This document shows, one piece after another, positions 8,571-27,162 of a stretch of DNA of 64,000 nt. This DNA comes from Candidatus Gastranaerophilales bacterium (GTDB lineage Bacteria > Cyanobacteriota > Vampirovibrionia > Gastranaerophilales > Gastranaerophilaceae), in contig CALVEH010000003.1 of assembly GCA_944326545.1 (NCBI GenBank), positions 186,001-250,000 on the forward strand, given 5' to 3'. Positions within the stretch are counted from its first letter, which is position 1, and each line of letters starts with the position of its first letter. The notes below the pieces were generated by a model. It ran no database searches. It was given only the letters and a program-made list of their open reading frames with translations, and was not told the DNA's origin. Made by a program: the position numbers and the translations under genes.

Positions 8571-8981
8571 TGTATTTCGAATACTAGGATTTGAATTTAA
8601 CCTGTGTCTATAGGTCTATATATTTATTTCCCCTAAATTTTTCAAATAATCCTTGTTTTCTTTAATGGCTTTTTTATTGCCGGAAATTAAGTATAAAGAA
8701 TGCTGAGAAAAATAATACTTTGTCAGTTTTTTCATAAATTGCGTTGTAAAAATCATAACAAATCTATTATAAATAGTCTTTATTAGTTAACTGTTATATT
8801 ATCAAATAAATCAAATTGAAATTAAAACATTTACAAGTAGATAAGTGAAAGTTATTTGGTTATGCTCTATAAAAATAACTCAAAAATTGTAAAAATTTTT
8901 CATAAAATTATAAAATACTAGCAAATATAAATATTTATGATTTTTGAATGACTAAATAGTTAATCATAATTAGGTGACATC

Positions 8982-10469
8982 ATGAAAGTATATTTAAACA
9001 CTACAACAAAAGCAAACTATTCTAACAATTTAAACAGGTATAACAATACAAACAAACCTTGTTTAACGTCTTTTCAAAACAGCGACAAATTAGAACTTTC
9101 AAGCAAAACTAATCCGAACCTCTCTTTTAAGGCAACTTTTTGGAAACACCTTTCTGCAGGAATTTCAGCAGGTGCAGCAAGCGGTGCCGCCATAGGTACT
9201 AAAGTCGGTGGTGTGATTGATTTAGGAACTGCAGGAGCAACTGTGGGTGTGCCTACAGCTACTGGTGCGACTGTCGGAAGTGTTATAGGCGGTGTAACAG
9301 GTGCAATTGGTGGAACAATCTCATACTTTACTAGCAAAAGCCGTGAAGAAATAAAAAAAGCCGCTGCAGAGGAAGCAGCCAAAATACAAAAAGAAAAAAA
9401 TGCACTTGAAGCAAAAGCAAAAGCTCTTGAAGAACAACAAAACATTGCAGATGCAAAAAATCAAGAAGCCTTAGAGAAAAAACAAGCTCAACTTGATGAA
9501 TTAAAAGAACAAAACAGAATTTTAGAAAAATATGCGGTCAAAAAATTTGAAGAAGCTAACGGTGTCGGTTTGGGCAGAATCGCAGGGTATTATGAAGATA
9601 AAAATCTTCTAAATGTTACTTTTATTTCACCATATAAAAAAAGCTTTAACCCAGAAACAAAATACGAATCTTACAATATTCCTAATGGTGTTTTGCTATA
9701 CGGTACTTCAGGAAACGGCAAAACAACATTAGCTGAAGGAATTATTGAAGAATTGATGAATACAACAAATACAGTGTTTTACAATTTATCAGATTTAAAA
9801 AGATCACAACTTGAGGATAAACTCTGTGAAATAAAAGAAAAAGCTCAACAAGATTGGGAAAATGACAACAAAAGAACAATTATATTTTTAGATGAATTTG
9901 ACGGTTTTGCTCCAAATCCAAGTATTTTTAAAAGAAAACTTCAAGGCGATGATACCGAAAATCCATCAAACGGCTATCTAAAAAACTTTATGAATGATTG
10001 TAATAAGTATGGTATAACCATAATTGCAACAACAAACTATCCGAGAAATATCGAAAAACCGTTCATAGACAACGATAGCAGATTTTCTGTAAGAACAGCA
10101 ATAGAACCGCCGCAAGCTGAAGATATTACACAAATTTTAAATTACTATCTTGAAGGAGTAACAGATGATACAGTTAATTTGGAAGAAATTACAGATATTT
10201 TAATCCAAAAAACAGATAAGGATAAAGCTATGTATTCTTCTTCAAAAATCGAAAAGCTTGCAGAAAAAGCAAAAGATAAAGCTAAAAAAGAAAAAAGATT
10301 TGTTTCACAGGAAGATTTATTAAAAATAGCAAATAAAACCAATCCAAATATTGATAGTGATGATATAGAAAGCTTCAAAGAGGATTTTGAATTTATAACT
10401 AATATGACTTATGAAGAATATCTTGAAGAAAAAGAAGAAAATAAACAACAAGAAAATACAGAGGAATAA
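8982..10469 (+). CDS. AAA+ ATPase with glycine-zipper and coiled coil
   Basis: 495 residues. Order: N-terminal Asn-rich segment with the SFKA motif (48-51); a Gly/Ala-rich hydrophobic glycine-zipper-like region (57-112); an Ala/Glu/Lys coiled coil (120-190); an AAA+ domain with Walker A GTSGNGKT (241-248) and Walker B IIFLDEFD (300-307); and an acidic Lys/Glu tail. The AAA fold resembles FtsH/proteasome-type unfoldases, but no protease domain follows. The glycine zipper suggests membrane contact. It is the first gene of a four-gene operon (3-base gap to the next). Function unknown; probably remodels or exports a partner protein. Confidence 0.85.
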   Translation: MKVYLNTTTKANYSNNLNRYNNTNKPCLTSFQNSDKLELSSKTNPNLSFKATFWKHLSAGISAGAASGAAIGTKVGGVIDLGTAGATVGVPTATGATVGSVIGGVTGAIGGTISYFTSKSREEIKKAAAEEAAKIQKEKNALEAKAKALEEQQNIADAKNQEALEKKQAQLDELKEQNRILEKYAVKKFEEANGVGLGRIAGYYEDKNLLNVTFISPYKKSFNPETKYESYNIPNGVLLYGTSGNGKTTLAEGIIEELMNTTNTVFYNLSDLKRSQLEDKLCEIKEKAQQDWENDNKRTIIFLDEFDGFAPNPSIFKRKLQGDDTENPSNGYLKNFMNDCNKYGITIIATTNYPRNIEKPFIDNDSRFSVRTAIEPPQAEDITQILNYYLEGVTDDTVNLEEITDILIQKTDKDKAMYSSSKIEKLAEKAKDKAKKEKRFVSQEDLLKIANKTNPNIDSDDIESFKEDFEFITNMTYEEYLEEKEENKQQENTEE

Positions 10470-10471
10470 AT

Positions 10472-11074
10472 TTGTCCACACCTGTTTATAAAGACTTTTA
10501 TAGACACTTGGCATCAGTTGATAAAACGAATTATCAACTGCCTGCTGCTGCGAAAAAAAAGCAAAAATATATTATGCCACTAACTCTTGCAGGAACAGCA
10601 GTAGGTATTATTCAACCTTCTTTAAAAGTCAGTAAAAACATAAACATGCAATACGCTGTTTTTGCAAAAGAAAAGCTAAAACAATTAATGACAGCAGAAT
10701 TTGACCAAGCACACAAGCATCAATGCATACCAAGATTCAACAAAAACCCGATTACACATATAAAACAAATCCAAAACAGCATAAAAAATTATGATGAAGA
10801 TATCTTCAGTTATCAGGAAAGTCTTTCTAAGTCAAAAAATAACATTGAACTTGAAAAAGCAATTATAAATACTCAAAAGAAAAAACTCCAACTTCAACAG
10901 TTTCTGGCTGAGTATAAATATATTTTTGAGGATATAAACTTGCAATTTAAAGCAAAAATGAATGAAAGATTTATGAAAAAAACTATTAGCGGAATTTTAA
11001 TTTGGTCTACAATTGGTACTCTTGCCGGAATTGTATTAGATAAAATAAAAGAAAAAGGCTCAACTACAAAATGA
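10472..11074 (+). CDS. Hypothetical protein with two hydrophobic segments
   Basis: 200 residues. A short hydrophobic segment near residues 32-48, a central charged helical region with coiled-coil character, and a second hydrophobic segment (about 171-187) with a GTLAGIVL core. The start is TTG at 10472, supported by AGAGGA about seven bases upstream. Its last 4 bases overlap the next gene as ATGA, so translation is coupled. No family recognised. The context suggests a membrane adaptor for the AAA proteins on either side. Confidence 0.65.
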   Translation: MSTPVYKDFYRHLASVDKTNYQLPAAAKKKQKYIMPLTLAGTAVGIIQPSLKVSKNINMQYAVFAKEKLKQLMTAEFDQAHKHQCIPRFNKNPITHIKQIQNSIKNYDEDIFSYQESLSKSKNNIELEKAIINTQKKKLQLQQFLAEYKYIFEDINLQFKAKMNERFMKKTISGILIWSTIGTLAGIVLDKIKEKGSTTK

Positions 11075-12000
11075 AAATCTGTTCAGTACAAAATACAATA
11101 AGACAATATCAACCTTCTTTGTCATTTAAAGGAAAAACCATAAATGGTCACTATTATACCGATCAAGAATACGTTGATGCGCTAAAATATAAATCATACG
11201 GACATGTCGATTATTCATACTTTGTTGACAGATATGGTTTTTTTGAATATGTCTTTACAAAAAATCCAGAAAGACACGCTAATGAAGTAAACAAGTGTAT
11301 TAATGATATTAAAGAAGAGGAAAAACAAAAAAATGCTATAAGAGAAGAAAAATTAAGAGCAATAGAAAAAGAAAAACAAGAATTATCAAAAAAAATAGAA
11401 GATATTGAAAAAAAAGAAAAAGAAAGAAAAAAAATCATAGAAAAATATGCCAACATTGATAAAAATACAGAACTATTATCGTGCGGTTTGTCGCAAGAGA
11501 ACATAGAACAACTATCTGAAGAACTTTTCCAGCCTTATGGAGAAAGTGTTGCGAATGAGGAGCAATACCCTAATACGCCTAATGGCTTACTTATACAAGG
11601 TGACGATTCAGCACAGAACGAAAAAGCTGCAAAAGCTATTGCCCGTCAAATACAACAGGAAAACACAATATCAAATGTACAACAAATAAATTTTGATGGA
11701 AATATTGAAAAATTCCAAAATGATTTAAAAAGAATAAAAACAATTGCAAGTCAAAATTACTCTCAAAAGAAAGAAATGACTGTAATATATATACCTGATT
11801 TTGATAAAATTGCACTAAAGCCTAACAAAGCTGATTACAGACCCGAATTAAACAGTTTTTTAAAAGTTTATATGTTAAATTGTGCAAAAAACGGATGCAT
11901 TTTATTGGCAACAGCCAAAGATGAAGAAAAAATAGAATCTCCGTTTTTGATAAATAATAAACGATTCGGTATCATTGTAAATTTAGAAAATGAGGATTAA
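11071..12000 (+). CDS. Degenerate AAA-type protein (pseudo-ATPase)
   Basis: 309 residues with the SFKG motif (18-21), a strong Lys/Glu coiled coil (80-125) and a C-terminal domain that aligns with the AAA+ domain of the first gene in the operon. The Walker A position reads GDDSAQNE (177-184) where the active paralog has GTSGNGKT, so the lysine and threonine are lost. Walker B reads VIYIPDFD, with Pro-Asp in place of Asp-Glu. It should not hydrolyse ATP and may be a regulatory or structural partner of the active ATPase. It overlaps the previous gene by four bases. Confidence 0.75.
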   Translation: MKICSVQNTIRQYQPSLSFKGKTINGHYYTDQEYVDALKYKSYGHVDYSYFVDRYGFFEYVFTKNPERHANEVNKCINDIKEEEKQKNAIREEKLRAIEKEKQELSKKIEDIEKKEKERKKIIEKYANIDKNTELLSCGLSQENIEQLSEELFQPYGESVANEEQYPNTPNGLLIQGDDSAQNEKAAKAIARQIQQENTISNVQQINFDGNIEKFQNDLKRIKTIASQNYSQKKEMTVIYIPDFDKIALKPNKADYRPELNSFLKVYMLNCAKNGCILLATAKDEEKIESPFLINNKRFGIIVNLENED

Positions 12001-12001
12001 G

Positions 12002-15000
12002 ATGAGAATTACCCTAAATTTAAGCCATGAAAATACCAAGGCAATAAAGAAAAAAAGCTCACTTAATTTACAACAAGTAAAAACAGTACCAATAAATTAT
12101 GTTAATACAAACAAGGTTACATTGAGCAGTTTTATATTTCCTGCAACAAAAATATCTTTTGGGCAAAATCAATTTCAACCTGATGAAGATAATGCTCTTT
12201 TTAATGAAGAAGATGCAACCAGCTTTAGCATAAAACTCTTTAACAACATAAACAAATTTTTGTCACAATATAAAAACAAAACGCCTGAATCTGAATCATT
12301 ATACCTGTTAAATCAGGATAAAAAAGACAAAGCAATTTCAACAAAAAATATAACAATAATGAATAATGCTTCTGCAAAACAAGTAAATGCAGAACTTGTA
12401 GATATGTTTAACTTTGCATCGGCAAATAAAATTCAAACAAATATGAATACATATCTTTTTGATAATTCTACTGCTGATGAAATAAAAGCAAAGAAAATTT
12501 ATCTTTCAGACAAAGCTTTTTCTTCAAAAAACGAAGCAGAGACAGTCTGGATTAAAGACAACGCAACAGCTGAAAACATTACAGCTAATAATGTTTATCA
12601 AAGGAATAACTCTAAAACTAATACAATTTTCACAAAAAACTTTTTTGCAGCAGACAATATTAACTGTGAAAATTTAACAGCCAACAACATTTTGCTTAAA
12701 AACTCTGCTAATGTTCAAAATGCAATTATAGAAGACGGAGAAGTTGTGCTGTATAACGATGCAAAAATTAATAATTTAAATACCCAAAATTCCAAAATAA
12801 TATTAAACCAAAATACATCTATTCAAAACATTACATCTGAAGATAATCTTACAATTACAGGCAACGGAACTATCGGTGACGTAGTTATAAAGGGCTCTCA
12901 TTTATTTCTAAACGGACCGATAAGGATAAACGGAAAAATTAGATTTGCAACTCCTGACGGAGTAGTAATAGCTCAAAGGGGCAAACAAAATATATTTCCT
13001 AAAATTGATTCATCAATGGTAGAAAGCGGGATACTCCAATTTTTAATCAGTGATAAAAATAATGTATATTTAGGAAACCCTGGAGATGTTTTTGCGTCAG
13101 GTTTAAGCATTCTGGGCAATAACATAGCAGAAGAAAAGAATAAAGAACAAATTCCAGTCTATTCAAAAGACAGCACTATAATCTCAGAGATTAACAATAA
13201 TCCCGAAATAAAAAGTCTTTATGTGGATTTTTATAAAGACAATCTGCAGTTATTATCAAATGATAACAAAGCAAAAGTTTTCTCTTTGTTCTGGACAAAA
13301 AATGCAAAACTGGGAGAAAAAAAGCTTGCAGACATATGGATGGAAATATTGGACAAACAACCAGAATCAATACCAGATACACAAAAAACTTATAAAATAA
13401 ACAATCTTACTGATGGTGAAAGAAAACTTTTATTAGAAAAAACGACCCTTTACTGGTTCAAAAACATTTTGCCTCAAATAATAAAAGAACAAAATTTTAA
13501 TGATTTTGATTGTTACAAACAAAATTTGGATACAATTGAAAAATTGTTAGATAATTTAGAGCAAAATAAAGAAAATATCCCAAAGATCTTGAGCGATAAC
13601 AAAATTTTGTATGAAAAACTCAATTCACTACAACTTGATAACCAATCTCTTTTTGACTTTTGGTTAAAAAACGATAATCCAAAATTTACTCAGGATATAA
13701 AAACAGAAAGATTAAAAAAACAGCATTTGAATGAACTTCTGGCAAGTAAACACAGACGCAAAAAAATTATTAATATAACTCAAGACGAACTAAAAAATCA
13801 AAAGAACTTTATAAAATCTTATGAATTTGCCTGTGATGATTTGATTAAAAACGAACCTGAACTTGATAAATTACAGCAAAAATTGCTTGAAAAGTACAAA
13901 AACAGCAAAGTGTTCTACCAAATTATTTCAGAAACATCAAATAAAACAAATGATACAAAAAAAATAGAAATTGAAATAATAAAAATCTTGCAATCTTTAA
14001 CTAATGAATACAGACAATTATCTATTGATGCAAGAAAAAACATATTCGACAAGACCTTGAATGTAGCACATGTAATAACTGCAAAACCTAATACAGAGTT
14101 AGACAACTACGTAAACTTTGTATTCACAGCTCTATCACAAAATGTCCACACAATGCCAAAAAAAGATCTGTTTGATTTTATAAATGATACCAATGCATTC
14201 AAAAACTTTGTAAGCAAAAATTCTGCATATTTTAGTGACTATTGGCTGGATATGGTAAAAAACGCATATCGGTTTTATGACACAAAAATGCTTGATATGA
14301 TTACAAAAAACAATCTTAAATTGTTATATTCAAATGAACAAAATAAAAAAAATGCCTCAAATAAAATTGTAAAATTTATAAACACTCTACAAAAAAATTC
14401 AGCTGATACAATAGAACAAAAAGAATTTATATCTCGTTTTAAAGATAATATCAATTTTGAAAAATTGATGAATAATACTGGCATAGAACAGAAAAAAGCA
14501 CTAACTGAATTGTTAATGACAGAAGTTATAAACGAAAACTTATATCTAAATCGTCTTAACTCTTACCCACAAAGTATTACAACGGATTCAGTAAAAGAAA
14601 ACTTGGATTTAACTGACAAATACCTTGTTCTGATAGACAAAGACTATTCAGACATGTCTATTCAAGAAAAATACAAAACTATTTCAAAAGTACCTGATGA
14701 AGAATTCAGATTAATGAACAGATTAATTTTTAATGATTGGAAAAAACACGAACTTCAAAATCTTTTAAATAATAAGTTTGTATTAATGCAGCTTGAATAT
14801 AATGCAAATGCCCAAAGTAAAAATATAAAAGATAATTTAGAAACAATAAATAGCAACCTTAACAATATAAGAATAAATATTGCAGGTCAAAATTATACTT
14901 TACAGGAAATGGCCGCAAACCTAGATACTCTTGTTAATATAAGTCAAAAATCTTTTAAGGAACTATATTTCATAGGTGAAAATATTGAGGCTATAAACAG

Positions 15001-15388
15001 TAATACACAGAGCATAAAAGCAAACACAAGAGCAGTTTTGTATGCAACCATGCAAAACTCAAAATTTAGAGATCCTGAATTGTCTAAAACAATTGAAGAA
15101 CTGCTTCCTGTTGTAGAAAGAGGTTCTTTTTCTGACTTTTTATCAGAGGTTGAAAAAAAATACCAAAAAATAAAAGATGAAAAAAAGAAAAAAGAACTGA
15201 AACAAATTGCAAATCTTGCAATGCTTGCAGCATCCGCTTCCTGTATTGGATATATTGATCCATCATTTATAACAGGTTTTTTAGGCGGTGGAGACATTAT
15301 CACTCATGCAATTTCAGCAATAAAACCAATAGCAGACACACTAAAACATGTCGCTATTTTCAAAGCTGCAACAACAGGAATGAAATAA
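12002..15388 (+). CDS. Large protein with beta-helix-like region and helical C-terminal half
   Basis: About 1129 residues. The ISFGQ motif is at 51-55. Residues about 100-320 form short repeated strands rich in Asn, Ile, Ala and Thr (units such as ENLTANNILLKNSA) ending in a smooth IRINGKIRF strand. This looks like a beta-helix or bactofilin-like solenoid. The remaining 800 residues are Lys/Asn/Glu-rich helices with a Gly-rich hydrophobic patch near the C terminus (GFLGGG). ATG at 12002 is preferred over 11990, since GAGGA lies just before it. It is last in the AAA operon and is the likely client or structural partner. Confidence 0.7.
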   Translation: MRITLNLSHENTKAIKKKSSLNLQQVKTVPINYVNTNKVTLSSFIFPATKISFGQNQFQPDEDNALFNEEDATSFSIKLFNNINKFLSQYKNKTPESESLYLLNQDKKDKAISTKNITIMNNASAKQVNAELVDMFNFASANKIQTNMNTYLFDNSTADEIKAKKIYLSDKAFSSKNEAETVWIKDNATAENITANNVYQRNNSKTNTIFTKNFFAADNINCENLTANNILLKNSANVQNAIIEDGEVVLYNDAKINNLNTQNSKIILNQNTSIQNITSEDNLTITGNGTIGDVVIKGSHLFLNGPIRINGKIRFATPDGVVIAQRGKQNIFPKIDSSMVESGILQFLISDKNNVYLGNPGDVFASGLSILGNNIAEEKNKEQIPVYSKDSTIISEINNNPEIKSLYVDFYKDNLQLLSNDNKAKVFSLFWTKNAKLGEKKLADIWMEILDKQPESIPDTQKTYKINNLTDGERKLLLEKTTLYWFKNILPQIIKEQNFNDFDCYKQNLDTIEKLLDNLEQNKENIPKILSDNKILYEKLNSLQLDNQSLFDFWLKNDNPKFTQDIKTERLKKQHLNELLASKHRRKKIINITQDELKNQKNFIKSYEFACDDLIKNEPELDKLQQKLLEKYKNSKVFYQIISETSNKTNDTKKIEIEIIKILQSLTNEYRQLSIDARKNIFDKTLNVAHVITAKPNTELDNYVNFVFTALSQNVHTMPKKDLFDFINDTNAFKNFVSKNSAYFSDYWLDMVKNAYRFYDTKMLDMITKNNLKLLYSNEQNKKNASNKIVKFINTLQKNSADTIEQKEFISRFKDNINFEKLMNNTGIEQKKALTELLMTEVINENLYLNRLNSYPQSITTDSVKENLDLTDKYLVLIDKDYSDMSIQEKYKTISKVPDEEFRLMNRLIFNDWKKHELQNLLNNKFVLMQLEYNANAQSKNIKDNLETINSNLNNIRINIAGQNYTLQEMAANLDTLVNISQKSFKELYFIGENIEAINSNTQSIKANTRAVLYATMQNSKFRDPELSKTIEELLPVVERGSFSDFLSEVEKKYQKIKDEKKKKELKQIANLAMLAASASCIGYIDPSFITGFLGGGDIITHAISAIKPIADTLKHVAIFKAATTGMK

Positions 15389-15397
15389 AAATTTTAA

Positions 15398-16000
15398 CTA
15401 ACACAAAGCAAACATAGAGTTATTTAAGAAAGCTACCTCAGGCTTTTCTATATCAAGATATCCTAAATTTACAGAAGTTTGCTTCAGGTCTGTAAGCATA
15501 TTTGTGTTGTCTTTAATATATATTTTTAAATCATCGCTAAATTTTGATTTGAAAAATTTATTTATATTATTGATACAGTCAAAAACATTTGTATTGGCTT
15601 GAAAAAGTAAAACATCAGGCATCATTACAGGTCTGTAATAAGGTGACGAAACAGTTGCTATTGAATTTTGTTTTTTTTGTTCAAGTGTAGATACTATTGT
15701 AGTCAGTTTTTTAAAATCGTGCGGGGTATTGAAATATTTACTTTCTGCCAATTCTCTAAATGCAGGAGTTTTGATATATTTTTGTACATAATACGCCTGA
15801 TTTGATCCATCTAGACAATCTTGAACCGCTACCAATTTTGCGTATTCCTTTTGTTGAAGTAAATTTGTCTCGGTTCTCTCATTATAAGAACCAATATTTA
15901 AACTTTTAAGCAAGTTATCAATCGGATTTGGCAATTGCTGTACAGGTGTCATTATATAATTAGTTTTAAATTTATGCATTTGAATTGTTTGTGTCAGCAT
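15398..16000 (-). CDS. Hypothetical protein, partner of the HExxH protein
   Basis: 200 residues, mostly helical, without a signal peptide, membrane helix or recognised motif. Only one base separates it from the upstream metallopeptidase-like gene, so the two form a pair. It converges on the 1129-residue gene with a 9-base gap. Possible roles as chaperone or inhibitor of the peptidase are guesses. Confidence 0.6.
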   Translation of the reverse strand: MLTQTIQMHKFKTNYIMTPVQQLPNPIDNLLKSLNIGSYNERTETNLLQQKEYAKLVAVQDCLDGSNQAYYVQKYIKTPAFRELAESKYFNTPHDFKKLTTIVSTLEQKKQNSIATVSSPYYRPVMMPDVLLFQANTNVFDCINNINKFFKSKFSDDLKIYIKDNTNMLTDLKQTSVNLGYLDIEKPEVAFLNNSMFALC

Positions 16001-16001
16001 A

Positions 16002-16889
16002 TTAACCTCCTGCTATATTATACCAGGCATTGTTAACAAGATCAGCCAATTTTTTATCATGTTTCCCTTCCTGATAAAAAGGATTTTGTGTAACTTTCAG
16101 CGTGTCAGGATCTAAAACATCTATAACCTCTTTTGTTATAGTTTCTGCAATAAGTTCAAATGGATTTCCTCCTTGTATGGAACCAGAGCGTAGTCTTCTG
16201 CCTGCAGCATATTCACTGATCTCTTTTTTTATTATTTCCCTTTGTTGCGGAGTATATCTTGAAGATTGCATTTGTTTTAGGTGTTCTATTCCTGAAACAT
16301 AAGGATTAGGGTCATAATATGCCCCATTAAACGTATTGTATCTTTGCAATGTTTTGGTGCATGTTCCGTCATATCCAAATACTTTATATAACAAATCGTT
16401 ATGAATATTGTGAACCCATTCATGCATTATTGTATGAAGAAAATGATTTGTTGAATTAAATCCTGAACGATGTTGAGACTCGGCCAGTACATCCATTTCT
16501 GCCAAAGTTTTCATTTTTTCATTATTGTAAAATATAGATCTGGATTCATATATACCTTTGCCTGAAATAATTCTTTCTGAATCTGGCAAGCAAAAACCGA
16601 GACAACCTGTATTATTATAATCAATCAAGTCCCAATCGTGGTACACTGTCAAACTTGGAGGCTTTGCTCCAAAAGGTAATTTGTATTTAGTAGTTAATGT
16701 TTCAAAAATATCATTAACAATACCGCAACAATATGCAATGGCTCGGTTGTTTTTAAAATCTGCATTAACGCCTTGTTTTTGAAACAATTTCTCTATACTT
16801 GCAGCAGAGTACTGTGCTGCTTGAATTTTTATTGTTTGTGTCAGACCAGCTTTAAATGAAATTCTTTGCGGATTATTTTTTATTTTCAC
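16002..16889 (-). CDS. HExxH metallopeptidase-like protein with SFKA motif
   Basis: 295 residues. The SFKA motif is at 11-14. HEWVH at 156-160 is a standard zinc-binding HExxH, set in a helix (LHTIMHEWVHNIHND). A downstream NPFELIAET (E245 and E249) supplies a plausible third ligand, as in many Glu-zincins. There is no classical signal peptide, so export would have to use another route, perhaps linked to the SFKA tag. Substrate unknown. Confidence 0.7.
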   Translation of the reverse strand: MKIKNNPQRISFKAGLTQTIKIQAAQYSAASIEKLFQKQGVNADFKNNRAIAYCCGIVNDIFETLTTKYKLPFGAKPPSLTVYHDWDLIDYNNTGCLGFCLPDSERIISGKGIYESRSIFYNNEKMKTLAEMDVLAESQHRSGFNSTNHFLHTIMHEWVHNIHNDLLYKVFGYDGTCTKTLQRYNTFNGAYYDPNPYVSGIEHLKQMQSSRYTPQQREIIKKEISEYAAGRRLRSGSIQGGNPFELIAETITKEVIDVLDPDTLKVTQNPFYQEGKHDKKLADLVNNAWYNIAGG

Positions 16890-17038
16890 TTTAATTCCTC
16901 TGATATTTTAAGTTGAAAAAAAATAATTTTTGCGGATATTTTGTATTAATTTTAACAATTGTTAAAATTAATACAATAAAATAACAAATTTAAAAAATTT
17001 TAAATATTATACAAGTAGTATTAGAAGAGAGGCGGAAT

Positions 17039-17542
17039 ATGATAAAAGCAATTTCTTTGGTAACGAATTATGGATTAACTAAAACGACATCAAAAAAAAC
17101 TATTCAGCACAAATCAAATTATCAACAATCACAGATTTCTTTTTCCGGAATAATGGATAACCCTGAAGCAAAACGAGTTACAGATGCAAACGGAAATACA
17201 TACATAATTGAGTCTGGAGGCACTCTTGTAATACATAATAGTGACAAAGAAAACAAAAGAGGAGTTCAAAATACACTAACAGGTGCAGGTGTTGGGGCAG
17301 CTGGTACTTCCGTAGTTAACAAAAAAGTAAACCAGAATAATACTCACGGGCAAGCCACAGACCAAGATGACAAAACACCTCACGAATATACCAAAAATGA
17401 AACAGATAAATTTGACGATATTAAAAATACTGATTCTTCAGATGATATAAAAGATGAGTCAGATTATGATCTTGATACAGACTATGATGATGACGATGAT
17501 GATTCTATTTTTGACGATTCACATCCGATTTATGAATTCTAA
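17039..17542 (+). CDS. Hypothetical SFSG-tagged protein with Asp-rich tail
   Basis: 167 residues. It has an N-terminal basic/Asn-rich segment with ISFSG at 33-37, a short glycine-rich stretch (GAGVGAAGTS) and a very acidic Asp/Ser/Lys tail that includes a run of five Asp. No domain recognised. GAGAGG precedes the ATG closely. The tag links it to the other SFK-type proteins nearby. Confidence 0.6.
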   Translation: MIKAISLVTNYGLTKTTSKKTIQHKSNYQQSQISFSGIMDNPEAKRVTDANGNTYIIESGGTLVIHNSDKENKRGVQNTLTGAGVGAAGTSVVNKKVNQNNTHGQATDQDDKTPHEYTKNETDKFDDIKNTDSSDDIKDESDYDLDTDYDDDDDDSIFDDSHPIYEF

Positions 17543-17663
17543 ACCTTACCTTTTAAAATTATTTACTAAAAAATTTAAAACATCACAAAAATCTTGAAAT
17601 AGCTAAAAAAGCAAATGAAACATTGAAAAATATTTTTAACAAATAACAAAATTACGGCAATTC

Positions 17664-18515: not shown

Positions 18516-19955
18516 TTAAGAAGAAGTATTATTTACTGATTTTATAAATAAATCAGTAGGAGTTTCTATATTTCCAAATTTTTCAAGAATTTCTATAATT
18601 TTATTTTTTACATCATCAAATGTTATTGTTGATAAATCATTCGAAAACTCATATTTTACACAAACTGCAGGATAAATATAAACTTTCTTCCCCTTATATT
18701 CTTTTAAATTTTTGATTACTATATTGTAACTATCTTTAAAGTTTTTCTTTAAAAAATCCAATAATTCCTTGTTATCACGAATATTTTTTACATCATGTGC
18801 TTTCCATAGTTGTTTATATATTGTTGAACAATCTTTAATAAAGGAACAGTTATTTGTTACAACAGCAAAGTTACATATAGTTGGATAACCTGCTCCATTT
18901 TTTATATAAGGAGTAAAGCAAAAGCTATAACCTTTTTTTGTTAACTCATCCCAAAATTCTGATTTATTAAAATTTTCATTCTCGAACCAATTTGATTTTG
19001 CTTTTGTTATCCCCATGTAAAGTTGTATATTTAGTTTTTTGTTTACCATAGGAAAGTCTAGTTCAGTAAAAAAAAGATTAGAGTATTTGCTTTGTAAATC
19101 TATCGCACAAGCCCAATTATAGCCTTTAATTTTAATATATTCTTGGTTAACAATTTTCTCTAAAATATTCTCTTTAACAAAATTATTAAAACTGTTTTTT
19201 AAAATTTTGTGGTATTCCATTAAATGATAAACAGCTTCTTTTTCATCTTCCTTTAATTCTTCAATATCTAAATTCCACATTTTATCAATGAATTCGGGAT
19301 TGTTTTCATAAAATGTTTTTATATTATCATCTATTTTATTATATTTTTTATCCAAAATTTCTACATATTGATTTAATAGAATAGAGCTTATTTCTAAACT
19401 ATTTTTCTTTTCCAATATTTTTTTTAAAATATCTAAAATATCGTTATATGAAACAAAGTTGTATCCGCTATATCTTCCTTCTGTAGAATCAAAGCCAGAT
19501 GGTTTGGATAAATCTAAAAAAACTAAATATTTATGCTTTTTAGATTTGTATTTATCTTCAATAAATCGTTTATAATCTTGACATTGATTATCATGTTCAA
19601 ATGATCCATATTTGTTTTCTATTACACATACAAAATCCTCTCCAGTAAGCAAAATATCTATTCTACCAACTCTTTTTTTATGATTTTTTATTATTTCTAT
19701 TTTTACTTCAGATTCAATTTCAATATTTTTATTAAAAAATTCTAATGGAAGTTCAATTTTCGCCTTATCTAAAAATTTTTTTAAAAACTCAGTACCAATA
19801 TTATGAGATGCATTTTTATCAAAAAGCCAAGTTAAAAAATTAGAATGCCTAATTTCATAATTATCAACACGTAATATTTTAAAAATATTACAATCTTTTT
19901 TTCTTTTTTCTTCAAGTTCCTCAACTAATTTTTCAAAGTTATCATTTTGTGTCAT
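18516..19955 (-). CDS. PD-(D/E)XK nuclease family protein (PDDEXK_4-like)
   Basis: 479 residues. The N-terminal part has EIRHSNFLTWLFD (34-46), then GRIDILL with D100, then CVIENKYGS with E113 and K115. Together they give the Asp...Glu-x-Lys core of PD-(D/E)XK nucleases. I recall this N-terminal arrangement from proteins annotated PDDEXK_4 beside restriction or defence genes. The C-terminal 300 residues are uncharacterised and could bind DNA or a ligand. It stands alone between two non-coding, repeat-containing stretches, which suggests a mobile defence cargo gene. Confidence 0.75.
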   Translation of the reverse strand: MTQNDNFEKLVEELEEKRKKDCNIFKILRVDNYEIRHSNFLTWLFDKNASHNIGTEFLKKFLDKAKIELPLEFFNKNIEIESEVKIEIIKNHKKRVGRIDILLTGEDFVCVIENKYGSFEHDNQCQDYKRFIEDKYKSKKHKYLVFLDLSKPSGFDSTEGRYSGYNFVSYNDILDILKKILEKKNSLEISSILLNQYVEILDKKYNKIDDNIKTFYENNPEFIDKMWNLDIEELKEDEKEAVYHLMEYHKILKNSFNNFVKENILEKIVNQEYIKIKGYNWACAIDLQSKYSNLFFTELDFPMVNKKLNIQLYMGITKAKSNWFENENFNKSEFWDELTKKGYSFCFTPYIKNGAGYPTICNFAVVTNNCSFIKDCSTIYKQLWKAHDVKNIRDNKELLDFLKKNFKDSYNIVIKNLKEYKGKKVYIYPAVCVKYEFSNDLSTITFDDVKNKIIEILEKFGNIETPTDLFIKSVNNTSS

Positions 19956-20058
19956 AAGATCTACTCGTATTCATTAACATGTCTTCTAATTTTCTAAGTA
20001 TTTTATTCATCTTATAATTTGAATTTATTATATTATAAAAAGAGAGCATTAGTTATGG

Positions 20059-20172
20059 TGTTCGAATGATAAGAATACCTTAAAAGCTCTTGATATAACT
20101 AAAATATAGAGCAATACTGTAAATACATAGGATGATAAAATGGGGAAATTTTTGGACATTATTTCGACTCTC
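20059..20172 (+). pseudogene. Decayed coding remnant, copy A2
   Basis: Counterpart of 18132-18240. In one frame it reads KNTLKALDITKI, stop, SNTVNT, stop, then DDKMGKFLDIIS. Two in-frame stop codons break an otherwise protein-like sequence. It runs straight into the flank repeat with the terminator, so the lost gene once ended at this site. Confidence 0.4.
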
Positions 20173-20194
20173 GTTTTATCCACCAATAAATATG

Positions 20195-20345
20195 AGAGAC
20201 CTAAAAAGGTCTCTTTTTTTATGCCAAGATCCCTGCTGTTTGCGCGTTTTACCAAACATCAGAGAATCTCTTGTTTCGATTTTTCAAAGATTTTTCATAA
20301 ACTTAATCAAAATTCTCTTTTGGCTAATAAAAAAGGTCCTTTTTG
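20195..20345 (+). repeat. Dispersed flank repeat, copy 3, with orphan terminator
   Basis: Begins with a terminator hairpin (AGAGACC 20195-20201, GGTCTCT 20208-20214, T run to 20220). It then matches the sequence after tRNA-Ala (CTGTTTG, GCGTTTT, CAGAGAAT, AAAATTCTCTTTTGGCTAATAAAAA). Copy 1 lies directly behind a tRNA; here only a TTCGACTC stretch at 20163-20170 recalls a tRNA T arm. Confidence 0.6.
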
Positions 20346-20380
20346 TGTTTTAAACTCATATTTTATGCTAGTATTTCAGT

Positions 20381-21193
20381 ATGGGCAATGTAATTATAGA
20401 TTTATTTAGAACTGACAAACAAGCATTAGCGTTGTTTATTCAAGCTGCTGCTACTATAATGATAGGTTTGCTGGCCTGGACAGCCGCTAATGGGCAGAAT
20501 AGAATTGCTGAAAAATCCGAGAGAAAAGAATTATTTAAATTGCGATATAAAAATCTTTATCAAGAAGCTAATTTAATGTTTGCAAATTGCAATGAATTAG
20601 TATGTGAATATAGTGATATAATTCATTCACAATCAAAAAAAGCTAAGAAAAAAAATAAATCAACTATTCAACATATTCAATCTAGGTATTTTGAAATAAA
20701 TGAAGAATTTAACAAAAAAATGCAATTTAATCAGTTTTTAATTAAACCAAAAGATTTTGATAAATTAGAAACATTTTGCGAAGAGTATCTGATTGAAGTA
20801 AAAAAATATCTCTGGGATGAAACAGATAATCAGATTTGTAAAAATTATGAGGTTGCAATAAGATATAGCGAGCATCGTAATGTTATCCAAAAAATTTTAA
20901 GACCTTATTTGTTGCATGAGAATGAAAATTTCTTATCATTTTATAGTTATAAAATTTTTAAATATTTAAAAAATCATATTCATTTATTTTTATTAGATTA
21001 TTTCCCAACTTTTTTTGAAATATTTGGAACCATTTTACTTGCAATAATGCTTTTGGGCGGTCTTGCATTTGGACTTTTAGAACTTTTAAAAGAAGTTTTA
21101 AAAGCTCCTATTTCAATAAAAAATAAGAAATTTAATATGAAGTTAAAAATGAAATCAAAATATTTACAACGTAATAGACCATGGCCTATCTAA
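20381..21193 (+). CDS. Hypothetical two-pass membrane protein
   Basis: 270 residues. A membrane helix at about 18-36, a long charged helical middle region (about 45-190), and a second strong membrane helix (about 212-235) with a basic C-terminal tail. No family recognised. It lies between the flank repeat and the serine recombinase, to which it is convergent, so it is probably cargo of the mobile element. Two-helix membrane proteins of this shape occur among abortive-infection effectors, but nothing here proves that. Confidence 0.6.
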   Translation: MGNVIIDLFRTDKQALALFIQAAATIMIGLLAWTAANGQNRIAEKSERKELFKLRYKNLYQEANLMFANCNELVCEYSDIIHSQSKKAKKKNKSTIQHIQSRYFEINEEFNKKMQFNQFLIKPKDFDKLETFCEEYLIEVKKYLWDETDNQICKNYEVAIRYSEHRNVIQKILRPYLLHENENFLSFYSYKIFKYLKNHIHLFLLDYFPTFFEIFGTILLAIMLLGGLAFGLLELLKEVLKAPISIKNKKFNMKLKMKSKYLQRNRPWPI

Positions 21194-21213
21194 ATATTAC
21201 ATTTTTATTTATC

Positions 21214-22791
21214 TTATACATACTCATCTGCCGTCTCAATAAGTTTCTTCACATTTAACTCAGGATCTTGAGTTCCGTTCATTATGCTTTCTATAATTTC
21301 AGGTGGGAGAAATCTTAGTTTTCGTAATCTTTTATTGTTTCCATTTCTTGCTTCTTTGGGCAAGCGTCTTTCGGCACCGAGTTTGTTGTACCAAAAACTT
21401 TTTACAACAGCTTGAATAAGCTTGATGTCATAATTGGCTTTATCAGGAATGATTATTTTATTTTGTCTTTGCGGTGTTACAGATATTTGTACATTTTGTT
21501 CTCTTGATATACTAAACTCATCTTCAGGGGAATATTTAAAACTAGCATTAAACGCTATTGTCGCGAAATGCTGAATTATATAATTTATATCATAGCTTAT
21601 AGTGATTGAGTTCAACTTCAAATCAACGCTTTTGACTACAGTTCGGATAAATACTTTGTCAGGATTATAGTCTTGTATTTCTTTGAGTATTAGATTTTGT
21701 TGTTCTATGGAGTAATTTTCTAAATATTTTTGAATAAATAGAGTGTCTGCTAATAACTTATCTAGGTCATCTTTTACATACTGTTCTATTTCGCCTGCTG
21801 AAATTTTAGTTATTTCCCCACGTTCATATTTGCTAGGGTCTTTTAATGCAGGGCTTATGTAATATCTGTATAGCTTGTTGCTGCTTTTGCTATAACTTGG
21901 ACACATTTTATTCCCTTTGTCATCACGCAGTAATCCGGCTAAAAGAGTTCCTGTTTTTGCGTTTGTTGAGTGTTTTCTGGCAACAGCATTTAATTGCAAT
22001 AAATTTTGAGCATCATTAAACAATTCTTCTGAAACAAGTGGCGTATGTTGTGCCTCATAGACTTTGTTTTTATATGTAATTTTACCTAAATATACCTTGT
22101 TACCTAGTATGCAATATAAATTTGCTTTAGAGATGGGTTTACCTGCTCTTGAAAGAATGTTCTTTGATTTTAAAATCAGTATAAGATTGCTAACATTTTT
22201 AACTTTTAAATATTCTTCAAAAATAATAGGGATATTATCACAGAATGGTTCTTCGGGGTGTAGCATATGTTGTTTATTTTTAACGTATCCGTAAGGCGGA
22301 GCTCCGCATAACCAGAGCCCTTTTTGTCTTGAGGCTTCAAATTTGTCTCTTATTCTTTCGCCTGTAACTTCTCTTTCGAACTGCGCAAATGATAAAAGAA
22401 TGTTTAATGTGAGCCTGCCCATTGATGTAGTTGTGTTGAAATGCTGAGTAATAGATACAAATGACGCGTTATGCTTTTCAAAAACTTCAATAATTTTTGA
22501 AAAATCCATTAATGAACGAGTGAGCCTATCAACCTTGTAAACAACGACTATATCTATTTCATCATTTTCTATATCTTGAAGTAACTGCTTAAATGCAGGT
22601 CTATCCATTGTTCCACCTGAGTAACCTCCATCGTCATATCGGTTCTTTGATAGAACCCAACCTTCGTGCTTTTGTGATTTTATGTATGACTCACAAGCCT
22701 CTCTTTGTGCATCAAGTGAATTGAAATCTTGTTCTAGTCCTTCTTCTGTCGATTTTCTGGTATAAATTGCACATCTGATTTGTTTTTTCAT
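21214..22791 (-). CDS. Large serine recombinase (site-specific integrase)
   Basis: 525 residues. The N-terminal resolvase domain has YTRKSTEEG with the catalytic S14 and the conserved VVYKVDRLTRS and FARFERE-like helix (FAQFEREVTGERIRDK). A recombinase domain follows (about 165-270) with PPYGY, then a domain with a long helix and a basic tail. Such enzymes integrate and excise mobile elements and are frequently found with DUF2924 genes in prophage-like elements. It overlaps the DUF2924 gene by one base (TAATG), so they are coupled. The attachment sites are not certain; the recombinase may not act at the tRNA. Confidence 0.92.
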   Translation of the reverse strand: MKKQIRCAIYTRKSTEEGLEQDFNSLDAQREACESYIKSQKHEGWVLSKNRYDDGGYSGGTMDRPAFKQLLQDIENDEIDIVVVYKVDRLTRSLMDFSKIIEVFEKHNASFVSITQHFNTTTSMGRLTLNILLSFAQFEREVTGERIRDKFEASRQKGLWLCGAPPYGYVKNKQHMLHPEEPFCDNIPIIFEEYLKVKNVSNLILILKSKNILSRAGKPISKANLYCILGNKVYLGKITYKNKVYEAQHTPLVSEELFNDAQNLLQLNAVARKHSTNAKTGTLLAGLLRDDKGNKMCPSYSKSSNKLYRYYISPALKDPSKYERGEITKISAGEIEQYVKDDLDKLLADTLFIQKYLENYSIEQQNLILKEIQDYNPDKVFIRTVVKSVDLKLNSITISYDINYIIQHFATIAFNASFKYSPEDEFSISREQNVQISVTPQRQNKIIIPDKANYDIKLIQAVVKSFWYNKLGAERRLPKEARNGNNKRLRKLRFLPPEIIESIMNGTQDPELNVKKLIETADEYV

Positions 22792-23036
22792 TAGGCTACT
22801 CCCAAAAATTTCTTACCATTCCATCGGATCCCTGTAATCTTATTTGCAATTGCAGAAAGGCTCTTGTATTTTTCACCATTAAATTCGTAACCGTCATTTA
22901 AAACGATTACTGTGTAACGCTTGCCTTTAAACTCTCTGACTAATTTTGTGCCATCGGCAATTGAGAGAACATTTGATTCTTTCTCTACTTTTTGTGTTTT
23001 GTCGTATTGTTCAACGAGTTTGTTAATTTTGCGCAT
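22791..23036 (-). CDS. DUF2924 protein, N terminus cut off by an in-frame TGA
   Basis: The 81 residues contain the DUF2924 core: LVREFKGKRYTVIVL, then GYEFNGEKYKSLSAIA, then ITGIRWNGKKFLG. The frame continues upstream to an ATG at 23108 with AGAGG seven bases before it, interrupted only by TGA at 23070-23072 between KRIKE and EQKYRPLS. A tryptophan codon (TGG) at that place would restore a 105-residue protein. The ATG at 23036 has no ribosome site. The gene is therefore probably a recent pseudogene or relies on weak reinitiation. Confidence 0.75.
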   Translation of the reverse strand: MRKINKLVEQYDKTQKVEKESNVLSIADGTKLVREFKGKRYTVIVLNDGYEFNGEKYKSLSAIANKITGIRWNGKKFLGVA

Positions 23037-23182
23037 AACATCTCGAGAAAGTGGGCGATATTTTTGTTCTCATTCCTTAATTCTTTTTTCAAAACTGTTT
23101 AATGCCATACAGGTACCTCTTTTTACGTTAAGGTACTTGTATATATCGCTCTGTATCGACTAAAAATCAAGTGTTTAAAATC

Positions 23183-23470
23183 TTATTTATAACTGCCGAC
23201 TTTCCTACCATATTTGTCGTATTCAGTTATTCTTCCTGATGAATCTTTTTTGAATGAGCCTACTTTTTGACCGTATTTGTCGTACTTGTTGTATCCGATT
23301 GAGGTCTTTTTGTATGAGCCTGTTTTAGATCCATACTTGTCATAAGCATTGTAGCCTGAAGATGTTTGCTTATAAGGACCAGCCTTTTGACCATAACGGT
23401 CGTAAGAATTAACTGCAAAAGCTACATTTGCAAAAGATAATGTTAAACATAAAATTAAAAACTTTTTCAT
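23183..23470 (-). CDS. Secreted YDKYG-repeat protein, short copy
   Basis: 95 residues. A signal peptide (about 1-19, ending AFA) is followed by tandem units of about 20 residues of the form YDKYGxKxGSYKxTxxGYN, ending YDKYGRKVGSYK. The signal-peptide DNA (23401-23469) is nearly identical to the paralog at 34492-34902, so one copy arose from the other recently. The Tyr/Gly/Lys repeat resembles toxin-like YD or matrix repeats only superficially. Function unknown; an exported adhesive or cell-wall-binding peptide is possible. Confidence 0.75.
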   Translation of the reverse strand: MKKFLILCLTLSFANVAFAVNSYDRYGQKAGPYKQTSSGYNAYDKYGSKTGSYKKTSIGYNKYDKYGQKVGSFKKDSSGRITEYDKYGRKVGSYK

Positions 23471-24167
23471 AATTGTTCCTCTTATAATAAATTATTCTAT
23501 TATATCAAAATCATTGCTAAATCTTGAAATTTTTAATAATTTCAGAAATCATCTCTTTTTATTTACAAAAAAATTCAGTTACTATAGCTGCACTGAAGTA
23601 ACATTAATTATTTATTTTTTTCAAGAGAAATTGAGATTTCACTCGTTTATATATAATAAAATACTCTAAGTTGTGGCCTAAACTTGTTTGAAATAATTAC
23701 CAAACTGTTTGACTTTTGTATCTAGCATGTATTTAAAGTCATATTTAAAAACTATTTAAGAAGCTAATGTTACTTTCTGTAAATAAAAAACATTTATGCA
23801 TTAAGAAATCTACATGATGTGCTTATTCAAGGACTAATGTTAGCAAATAGTTGATAATTCAAGTGCCCAATTAGCGTTTATTTTTATTTTAATCATTTTG
23901 TTATAATATAAAAAGTACAAAGGTATTTGTTATGATTATTAAGAAAAAATATGTGGAACACCATGTTGTTTTATAATATTACCATTTAGAAACATCCTTA
24001 AATAGTCTTTTCTAAAAAACAGAGTTTACAGAAGATTTTTCAAGATACAATCTTTCAATAAATCTGTTTCACAAATTGCACCATATAAAAAACTTATTAG
24101 TTTTAGCACGTAAAATCAATTAAATAAAGAATTCTAAAGAAAACTTCTAAATTATTTTGCAATTATA
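23471..24167. other. Gap of about 700 bases without a credible gene
   Basis: Very AT-rich. The only notable item is a 14-codon open frame after ATG at 23932 preceded by an AT-rich TTATAATATA box, which may be the start of a lost gene. No RNA gene or clear hairpin terminator was seen. Confidence 0.4.
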
Positions 24168-26471
24168 TTAATTATTATCTTCAATTATAGGCAACCCAAG
24201 AGCTTCTGCGTGTTTTTCATCAATTTTTCTTATAAACGAAAATAATTGTTTTATTTCAGATGCCCCAACGCATAATTTAAAAGGTTCCAAAGCATCTAAA
24301 TCATCTATTTCGTCAGTATGACAACTTGCATTTGCAATATTTTCTAAATATCTATATTTATTTGTAGAAGACTCTTTAAATACTTTTTCAAATTTTGCAA
24401 ATAAAGTATCTTCATAGGGAGCTTGATATGATAAGAAAATTTCAAAAATTTTACGGATAGCAACACCTATTTCAATGTTATTTGTTGTAGCTTCATCTTC
24501 ATATGCTTTTTTAAGTTCTTCAATTTTTGCTAAATACTCAGATTGAAACTTGATAAAATGATTTGTCGCATTAATTATGTATGAAGAATTTTCATCCTTT
24601 TTTATTTGATAAATATGAAAAGAATCTTTAACATCTTTATTTTTATGTTTTAATATGTCCCTTATTTTTTTAAAGAAGTAAAAATTGTGTGTTAATATGA
24701 ATAGTTGTTTGAATTCGGTGGGTTTTCTAAATCTTTTACATAATAGTATTAATAAATTGTATAAATAATTTTGGTCTAGGCTTGAAACTGGGTCATCAAT
24801 AACAATAATACTACGCTTTATGTCAAAGTCTTTATCTTTAAGTGTTGCCAGAAAATAACTAAATGCAATTACAGTTTTTTCACCTTCACTCAAGTGTCTT
24901 GCTTCTTGTCCATCTTCTCGTGTAATTTTGTAATTCTTCTCAGGTTCAACAAAATTAAATTTGAATTTTTTGCATGAAAAAATAGTTTCTATATAGGTTT
25001 CAATTTCTTCAATGGCTTCTTCTTGGTTTTCTAATTGATTATTTAAGATTTTCAGTTTATCTTTTATTTTATTTGATAAATCTTCTGCTTTAGAAACTTT
25101 TTCTCCATATTCTTCAATTTGTGCAGATAGCTTGTTTATATTTTCCTCTTCTTTTTGAATATGGTAATTTTCAACTTCAATAAAGGCGCTATTTTTTTTA
25201 TTCTCTATAGAACTGATGTCAGCATTATTTTTATCAATTAAATTTGAAAAATTTATTATTTCGTTTTTCAAATTTTTAATTGGTTCATATTCGTACTCTT
25301 GAAAATTTGTATTTGAATAATCTAATTCTTTTTGTTTTAAATCATGCAATATTGATGACAGTCTGTCCTCATATAATTCTTTATATAATATTATACCCTC
25401 ATCTTTAAGTCTTTTTGCTTGGCTCTTATATGTATCTAAAAATTCTAATTCAGATATATCGCCAAAAATACTCTTTAAAAAGTTTGTTTGCCTAGACTGT
25501 TCTAATTTATCTTCAATTAGAGCTTTAACCCTTTTAAATTGATTGTCAAATTTTTCAAACTCATCATCTTTTGCAATAATTGCATTTAATTCTTTAAGTT
25601 TTTCTTCCCAATTAGGAATAGGGCTATTACAAAAGAAGCATCTATTGTCATTGTTTTTTATATCAAAATTTTTTCCTACGGTTATCCAATCAATTATTTC
25701 TTGCTTTAAAGTTGAACCTTTTCTTGAAATTGATGTCTTTAAAATGTCATTTACGCTTGTTAATTCTTCTTCAGTTAATATTATATCTGTTTGGTTTCTG
25801 TATTTTATAGGTTCCATAACCTTTTGTTTATAAGTCTTTTTTGCAATTTCAAAATTCTCATCTGATACTAATTCAGTAGACTTATTATATGCAGATACAG
25901 CACTTTTAAATTGGACATTTTTGTACTTATTCGAATCAAGGCTTAATTCTTCTCTTATTTCTGCTGCTTTTTCTCTAAATATACTTTCATATTTAGTAGT
26001 TGCTTCTACTAACTTAGTCGAATATATATATTTATCCGTAAGTTCACCTTGAATATTCTTTTCATATAATTTATTCAAGTGTTCATTTAATCGAACTATT
26101 TTTTTTCGTAATTCTCTCCTACCTTTACCAAAATCAACTGAGATTGGAGAGATTTCATTTTCTTCAAATTTTAATTCTGTACTAATAAAATCAGAATTAA
26201 AAACTTTTATTTGATCGGTATAGTCTGCAAATGAACTTATAATAAAATTGTCATCTAACTCTATTTTAAAATCTTCTTGATAACCATCTGCCCTGAATTC
26301 AGAAGGAATTCCACAACCCTGCGATAAATATTTTAAAAATCTTGAAAATGTAGTTTTACCTGAACCATTATATGCAAAGAAAAGATTATATTTTGTAAAA
26401 GGTAATAAATCTTCTTTAGCTGCAAATGATTTAAATGAACCAAAATTATTTAAATTAAGTATTCTTTTCAC
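24168..26471 (-). CDS. AAA_13-type ATPase, RloC-like candidate anticodon nuclease
   Basis: 767 residues. ABC-type ATPase split by a coiled coil: Walker A YNGSGKTT (34-41), zinc-hook-like CFFC (278-281) at the coil apex, signature LSEGEK (527-532), Walker B IIVIDDPVSSLD (555-566) and a THNFYF switch (594-599). The C-terminal domain has R673-x3-E677 in IRKIFEIFL and H718 in SCHTDE. This resembles the Arg-Glu-His triad of PrrC/RloC tRNA anticodon nucleases, whose nuclease domain is HEPN-like. RloC differs from PrrC by carrying the zinc hook. If it is right, the protein cleaves tRNA upon DNA stress or phage infection. Non-nuclease AAA_13 proteins share part of the pattern. Confidence 0.8.
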   Translation of the reverse strand: MKRILNLNNFGSFKSFAAKEDLLPFTKYNLFFAYNGSGKTTFSRFLKYLSQGCGIPSEFRADGYQEDFKIELDDNFIISSFADYTDQIKVFNSDFISTELKFEENEISPISVDFGKGRRELRKKIVRLNEHLNKLYEKNIQGELTDKYIYSTKLVEATTKYESIFREKAAEIREELSLDSNKYKNVQFKSAVSAYNKSTELVSDENFEIAKKTYKQKVMEPIKYRNQTDIILTEEELTSVNDILKTSISRKGSTLKQEIIDWITVGKNFDIKNNDNRCFFCNSPIPNWEEKLKELNAIIAKDDEFEKFDNQFKRVKALIEDKLEQSRQTNFLKSIFGDISELEFLDTYKSQAKRLKDEGIILYKELYEDRLSSILHDLKQKELDYSNTNFQEYEYEPIKNLKNEIINFSNLIDKNNADISSIENKKNSAFIEVENYHIQKEEENINKLSAQIEEYGEKVSKAEDLSNKIKDKLKILNNQLENQEEAIEEIETYIETIFSCKKFKFNFVEPEKNYKITREDGQEARHLSEGEKTVIAFSYFLATLKDKDFDIKRSIIVIDDPVSSLDQNYLYNLLILLCKRFRKPTEFKQLFILTHNFYFFKKIRDILKHKNKDVKDSFHIYQIKKDENSSYIINATNHFIKFQSEYLAKIEELKKAYEDEATTNNIEIGVAIRKIFEIFLSYQAPYEDTLFAKFEKVFKESSTNKYRYLENIANASCHTDEIDDLDALEPFKLCVGASEIKQLFSFIRKIDEKHAEALGLPIIEDNN

Positions 26472-26513
26472 AATATTACTCCTTATAAGCTAATAATATC
26501 ACAGAAAAATTTA

Positions 26514-26900
26514 TCATTTCATATCTTCAGGATACATAAGCCATAAGGTAATCCCGCTTTTAACGGCAACGGTTTTGACTCTGTTTATGTATTTTTCACT
26601 TTTTTCAAGATTTTCTACAATTAAAACAATGCCGGGTTTCTTTTTTAGCACTTCTCCATAGTAAAGTGCTTGTCCAATAGATTCTGCCCACTTTGGTGCA
26701 AAGTCAAATTCTATTGCATATGTGTTGGTAACACAATCCACTCTGGCCTTGTCTTGCAAAACTACTTCCATTGTTCCACAGTGTGCATCACACCAAACTT
26801 TTTGATAATCTTTTTCAAAATAAAGATGGCTTTTTGATGTTTGAGCAAAAGCACAAGTAGAAGATATTAATAATGTCAGTAATAATGTGTAAAACCTCAT
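26514..26900 (-). CDS. Small exported protein with a nuclease-like DxAIEFDFA motif
   Basis: 128 residues. A signal peptide (about 1-19) is followed by a compact domain with RVDCVTNTYAIEFDFAPKW and GIVLIVEN. The Asp, then Glu-x-Asp and Lys order looks like a small PD-(D/E)XK-type fold; I recall similar short exported proteins in other Gram-negatives. Two further cysteines (CDAHC) could form a disulfide. It sits between the RloC-like gene and a structured leader, on the minus strand. Function unproven. Confidence 0.65.
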   Translation of the reverse strand: MRFYTLLLTLLISSTCAFAQTSKSHLYFEKDYQKVWCDAHCGTMEVVLQDKARVDCVTNTYAIEFDFAPKWAESIGQALYYGEVLKKKPGIVLIVENLEKSEKYINRVKTVAVKSGITLWLMYPEDMK

Positions 26901-27028
26901 GTAATCTATTTTAGCATCTAATTGGCATATAAAAATATTAAAAAATAATTAATTTTTGAATATTTAATAAAATTTCAAATAATAATATAGTTGGTGTTAC
27001 ACACCTCCTGACAAGGTATAATTTAAGA

Positions 27029-27135: not shown

Positions 27136-27162
27136 GTTGGAAAACAATGGAAAGGACTATTT

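Follow-up and report, generated by a model that had tools for sequence, protein, structure and literature searches.

Why a compact bacterial operon should keep, beside an AAA ATPase with intact catalytic motifs, a second AAA subunit stripped of those motifs is the question raised by a locus of a Candidatus Gastranaerophilales bacterium (contig CALVEH010000003.1, positions 186,001 to 250,000; this whole stretch of 64,000 nucleotides is the window referred to below). Four co-directional genes on the forward strand form a tight operon there: P1 (8982-10469, 495 aa), an AAA ATPase; P2 (10472-11074, 200 aa, TTG start); P3 (11071-12000, 309 aa), the dead AAA subunit; and P4 (12002-15388, 1,128 aa), a giant partner whose start is placed at 12002 rather than 11990, in agreement with its relatives. 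The initial annotation had recognised this operon, and of the gaps of 3, -4 and 1 bases that it reported the last two stand, while the first is 2 bases. It overlooked that three further genes (15398-17542) belong to the unit: P5 (15398-16000, reverse strand, 200 aa), P6 (16002-16889, reverse strand), encoding an HExxH zinc-peptidase-like protein, and P7 (17039-17542, forward strand, 167 aa with an acidic tail). The gene order of the resulting cassette is P1-P4, then P6-P5 on the opposite strand, then P7. Promoter and terminator scans yielded nothing above chance level, and a tRNA was the sole match of the Rfam search.

P1 comprises an N-terminal tag, a glycine-rich hydrophobic stretch, a coiled-coil-like stretch and an AAA domain with its lid. 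It scores 61.8 bits against the Pfam AAA family PF00004 (E 1.2e-16), for which the cut-off is 21.2 bits, and carries the intact Walker A (GTSGNGKT, aa 241-248, 9702-9725) and Walker B (IIFLDEFD, aa 300-307, 9879-9902) motifs that had been annotated, as well as an arginine finger, R367 (10080-10082), assigned from the family alignment column. By sequence the AAA domain is nearest to CdvC, Vps4 and p97; among PHROGs the top match is a clamp loader (5e-13), and NCBIfam and the PDB both place CdvC and VCP-like ATPases first. The glycine-rich stretch (aa 59-116, 9156-9329), which had escaped attention, is Gly-zipper-like and weakly resembles RTX N-terminal and YiaD glycine-zipper families, with scores below the cut-off; judged from these features, it is a probable membrane contact.

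The third gene encodes a protein of the same family: P3 lies above the Pfam AAA cut-off (24.0 versus 21.2 bits) and shares 32% identity with P1 (E 6e-14). It consists of the tag, a long helix (66-127) and an AAA large domain (130-309). The Lys and Thr of Walker A and the Asp-Glu pair of Walker B are gone, as described earlier, leaving the degenerate sequences GDDSAQNE (11599-11622) and VIYIPDFD (11782-11805). The pairing of the two subunits depended on P3 having an AAA fold, and the structure prediction, which is confident (pLDDT 79 overall and about 90 within the AAA part), bears this out: the model matches p97 D1 with a Z of 16.5 and an rmsd of 2.7 over 165 residues. Since this match aligns P3 133-309 with p97 201-373, P3 ends where the p97 lid domain begins. 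The chain, lacking P-loop, Walker B and lid, terminates 11 residues past an arginine, R298 (11962-11964), which occupies the invariant column of 14 dead subunits. Both the absence of the lid and the retention of the arginine finger by P1 and P3 alike had been overlooked. The dN/dS of P3 is low (0.18-0.23 against the homologous genes of genomes G169 and G099), and the dead subunit is therefore maintained.

We fetched and read 60 loci from about 50 Gastranaerophilales genomes. A dead subunit was present in 43 of 57 loci with a scorable AAA domain, a count that gives no unbiased frequency, the loci having been picked by their AAA match. Of 192 genomes sampled from the order, 51 encode P1-like AAA proteins. 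A profile built from 14 dead subunits found matches in 63 genomes, all of them Gastranaerophilales, out of 386 sampled across the phylum, some of these matches being live subunits; all relatives in the collection searched are metagenome-assembled genomes of Candidatus Gastranaerophilales. At four loci (L135-L138) a single AAA protein of another family (GPPGCGKT) lies between conserved flanks, accompanied by a membrane-like protein tagged "VAFG" but by no dead partner.

Live and dead subunits turned out to be conserved in mirror image. In the live subunits the Gly and Lys of Walker A, the Glu of Walker B and the Asn of sensor 1 are near-invariant. In 53 dead subunits these positions are scrambled, and the domain is conserved best at the arginine finger (51/53); among the 14 used for the profile, most of which are only 15-22% identical to P3, R298 is the sole invariant residue. 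The ATP-binding subunits of the same loci, 61 after three unrelated AAA proteins had been dropped, lack the finger in 39 cases and keep it in 22, so that at most loci it is missing from the live subunit or from one of two live subunits. Furthermore, 11 of 54 dead subunits from several lineages, P3 included, end 7-16 residues past the finger, whereas live subunits extend at least 91 residues beyond that position. The finger arginine is missing from two dead subunits, those of G170 and G044.

A quick tree places the dead subunits in one large group plus separate cases; among the latter are P3, next to P1, and the dead members of the G117 and G105 loci, next to their own live partners. The origin of the dead subunits takes six changes by parsimony, at least two of which are forced by strong branches. 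Dead, finger-keeping partners thus arose more than once. A cluster-level Fisher test of the finger pattern gave p 1.7e-4, a value that overstates independence because finger loss among the live subunits needs only about five changes on the tree.

The simplest reading of this mirror-image conservation is a shared ATPase site in which the dead subunit is the finger donor. We therefore propose, with a probability of roughly two in three, that P1 and P3 assemble into a hetero-oligomeric AAA machine in which the finger of P3 completes the ATPase site in trans, with P4 as the switched partner. P1 would bind ATP through Walker A and B, sensor 1 and the lid, while P3, unable to bind nucleotide but keeping its AAA large domain just through the arginine finger, would reach with R298 into the ATP-binding site of the adjoining P1, which would render hydrolysis responsive to the docking of P3. 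As P1 has a finger of its own, hydrolysis in this cassette does not strictly depend on P3, which may instead cap or regulate the P1 oligomer as an arginine-finger donor. We infer oligomerisation, catalysis in trans, membrane attachment and the roles of P4-P7 from sequences and predicted structures.

The initial annotation had instead suggested an ATP-driven assembly, remodelling or export machine for the giant protein. In its strongest form this would be a threading unfoldase or an assembly or export motor in the style of p97, FtsH or Vps4 that acts on P4, with P3 as structural filler. The kinship of the P1 AAA domain to CdvC/Vps4 and p97, the hydrophobic segments in P1 and P2, and a P4 that is transferred with the AAA genes and at other loci has its helical part joined to AAA subunits all speak for such a motor. 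However, P1 lacks the aromatic-hydrophobic-Gly pore loop 1, as do 62 of the 66 live subunits listed. Of the four pattern matches two are unconvincing; the other two, KWIGE in L081 and GYVGD in L139, are canonical loops of AAA proteins unrelated to the family and serve as positive controls. Neither an export signal nor a channel was found when looked for, and a mere filler would not keep its finger above every other residue. Nor does this family carry a finger in every ATP-binding subunit, as classic threading AAA proteins do, P1 itself having one. Because pore loop 1 is missing from P1 and nearly all live subunits, we did not adopt the export or unfolding reading, which we regard as unlikely; a conditional ATP switch is the likelier fit.

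The nearest known AAA domains, those of CdvC/Vps4, Msp1 and p97 D1 (by sequence for P1, by structure for P3), belong to homo-oligomers with pore loops, and we know of no dead partner subunit in these systems. Parallels for a split site come from other systems. Clamp loaders such as E. coli gamma/delta' and RFC include finger-giving subunits that have no working P-loop. In clamp loaders and ORC, an AAA subunit lends its arginine finger to the subunit before it, whose ATP site is thereby made complete (PMC8121543); the finger offered in trans by P3, a partner with no ATP-binding motifs and a conserved finger, would be analogous. Nevertheless, P1 and P3 differ from clamp loaders in sequence and fold, which place them in the p97/Vps4-like group, in their hydrophobic segments and long helices, in the missing lid of P3 and in a cassette devoid of DNA-linked partners. 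Pex1/Pex6 is a hetero-oligomeric classic AAA complex in which one partner performs most of the hydrolysis and the fingers are needed for assembly (PMC4490564). The proposed P1/P3 oligomer would resemble this heterohexamer in its mixed composition; unlike the double-ring Pex1/Pex6 with its pore loops, P1 and P3 have single AAA domains and no canonical pore loop, and the P3 partner is without lid or P-loop. The catalytic principle is already known, whereas the literature searched contained nothing on this P1-P7 system and seemingly no account of the family, its partners or its repeated evolution.

What the AAA pair might act upon is indicated by P4. In the AlphaFold2 model, aa 150-358 (12449-13075) form a right-handed beta-helix, in line with the repeated-strand region described before, which matches antigen 43, HxuA and tailspikes with Z values of 9-11.5. 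Its pLDDT is mostly 60-87, and the model as a whole is of low confidence (pLDDT 59), with no Foldseek match below E 0.001 when searched entire. The conserved core is the helical part (aa 385-1128, 13154-15385), whose helices span about 385-1125, roughly 740 residues instead of the 800 first reported. In G170 and BRZ_DL_bin59 this part is joined to a dead AAA domain, and the order of live AAA, small protein, membrane protein and dead AAA plus P4 helical part is that of the window with P3 and P4 joined. The dead subunit of G170 fused in this way is one of those without the finger. In G104 the helical part is joined to the live AAA instead. Since the helical part is fused to dead or live AAA subunits elsewhere, P4 is probably a partner of the AAA ring bound to the assembly, and the coupling of the pair to the giant protein that had been suspected is supported by these fusions. 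The N-terminal module of P4 varies, being a beta-helix in the window and HEAT-like repeats, a call that is a reading of the repeat pattern, in the G002 and G009 proteins; separate ankyrin proteins adjoin other AAA pairs. P4 may therefore be pictured as docking on the AAA assembly by its helical part, with the beta-helix as a recognition or scaffold arm, and ATP hydrolysis would switch or release it.

P2 carries the two hydrophobic segments already annotated (aa 33-49 and 172-189), which enclose a helical middle. Together with that of P1 they could tether the assembly to the membrane. For P2 and the small membrane proteins of G090 and G155, which are alike in gene order and layout, a profile comparison gave no homology (probability 8%), and we do not propose a common origin.

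The conservation of these genes together, on which the initial annotation had also staked its case, was confirmed. A block of 8.73 kb (8836-17564) that spans the seven genes shares 91.7% DNA identity with G169, a member of a different genus, and from 8873 on 89.9% with G099. The two flanking genes in the window have identities of 66-69% to G169 and 74-79% to G099, and their homologues sit elsewhere in these two genomes. As the cassette is 90-92% identical while flanking core genes are only 66-69% identical in the other genus, it was recently transferred as one unit, and it is under purifying selection, with dN/dS values of 0.11-0.38 for its genes against G169 and G099. A fifth complete cassette with 79-87% protein identity and different neighbours was found at L151, and an older version with 38-53% identity in G076. 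Five complete cassettes were found in all, along with divergent triads of live AAA, membrane protein and dead AAA of about 30% identity; G154, of the same genus as the window, has P2 and a truncated P3 only. The stretch at 8626-8728, just upstream of the block, shows 78% identity with the 3' end of a gene for an M16 peptidase (942 aa) next to the cassette in G076, and this stretch is a probable gene remnant.

Downstream, at 18516-32927, lies a mobile or defence-like island with a PD-(D/E)XK nuclease (PDC-S26-like), a large serine recombinase, an AAA_13 protein, a PAPS-reductase-like protein, a PLD/SNase protein and a ParB-N/DNA methylase. The idea that cassette and recombinase constitute one integrative element at tRNA-Ala was rejected: the limits of the shared block, 8836 and 17564, fall short of the serine recombinase, and no second copy of the tRNA-Ala end was found in the window. 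At two other loci (L073 and L076), clusters of three live and one dead AAA subunit adjoin phage terminase and endolysin genes, and some AAA clusters may ride on prophages.

Mobility of this kind invites the view that the genes are a mobile anti-phage or inter-bacterial conflict cassette, in which the repeat protein is the sensor, the AAA pair the switch and P6 the effector. Patchy occurrence and horizontal movement, a repeat module that differs from locus to locus, and the serine recombinase and PDC-S26-like nuclease in the downstream flank are all compatible with it. P1 also shows weak similarity to IetA and TRIP13, but these are generic AAA scores. With IetAS the cassette has in common an AAA protein, a protease and a mobile context; the similarity of the AAA protein is generic only, the cassette enzyme is a zinc enzyme, and evidence for defence was not found. 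Against PADLOC, P1 gave weak matches of a generic AAA kind, P2 a single weak one and P3-P7 none. Among 110 sampled flanking proteins of other loci, five PADLOC families were represented by one protein each and none recurred, so that a defence-island context was rejected; these flanks consist largely of housekeeping genes, along with a small number of integrases and terminases, and no relative of P1 or P6 was found in viral contigs. Taken together, we view a conflict function as a tentative option.

P6 is zinc-peptidase-like by sequence, with HExxH and a conserved third ligand: H156, E157, H160, E245 and A248 are invariant in eight members, and comparison with PDB sequences gave no convincing match. 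P6-like genes occur beside AAA pairs more widely than any other neighbour (12 loci); the family reaches up to five copies in G158, many of its genes having no AAA pair nearby. The invariant HExxH and distal Glu, joint transfer and recurrence beside AAA pairs could point to an AAA protease in which a P1/P3 ring feeds P6, a split analogue of FtsH, with which the cassette shares an AAA domain, a zinc peptidase and membrane-like segments. In FtsH, however, AAA and HExxH occupy one chain, whereas P1 and P6 are separate genes, P6 being optional and on the opposite strand; several genomes have P6-like genes away from any AAA pair, most AAA pairs are without a P6-like gene, and the pore loop is missing. 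We judge such a protease improbable, and P6 is as likely to be a client or effector as the protease of the machine.

Under the preferred reading of P1 and P3 as a switch with a shared site, a further feature of the cassette calls for comment. Five of its seven proteins carry an N-terminal tag, [ILV]SF[KGS][GA]: P1 (LSFKA, aa 47-51, 9120-9134), P3 (LSFKG, aa 17-21, 11119-11133), P4 (ISFG, 12152-12163), P6 (ISFKA, 16848-16862, reverse strand) and P7 (ISFSG, 17135-17149). The tag lies within the first 55 residues, preceded by an N/K/S/T-rich, disordered-looking leader, and is found on non-homologous proteins; within the order it is frequent in the vicinity of AAA pairs. Statistics were drawn from 464 kb of the genome and the fetched loci. 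In relaxed form the tag occurs in the first 75 aa of 65 of 124 AAA-family proteins (52%), compared with 12 of 472 of their own internal windows (2.5%) and 12% of distant neighbours; likewise, an M[KRQ][IV] start is found in 61/124 AAA-family proteins versus 6/208 distant neighbours. This enrichment, and its presence elsewhere on an amylase-like protein and on ankyrin proteins, would accord with a sorting or export system for tagged proteins, with the AAA pair as energiser or as a tagged client. On the other hand, only about 2-3% of the sampled proteins of the genome bear the tag, tagged proteins also occur in loci without an AAA pair, and the tag could equally be a docking motif. A sorting system energised in this way thus seems to us rather doubtful, and the tag may be a sorting or docking signal. 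One protein with hydrophobic segments (L098:17857-19272) contains the SFKG motif several times inside the chain, which favours a docking motif over a cleaved leader.

Active sites split between AAA subunits have been described chiefly in machines of replication and of organelles. One bacterial order with dozens of divergent live/dead AAA pairs is a natural experiment in which a dead subunit has been cut down to its catalytic finger, and the proposal makes a sharp and cheap prediction, namely that R298 is the contribution of P3 to catalysis. More speculatively, these could be order-specific, membrane-linked two-key ATPases, in which lid-less finger donors were produced by repeated duplication and decay of a motor and were combined with exchangeable repeat giants and a shared sorting tag into a new mobile cell-surface or conflict machine. 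In either case, the cassette and its N-terminal tag would represent an unstudied mobile system of common, hard-to-culture gut bacteria.
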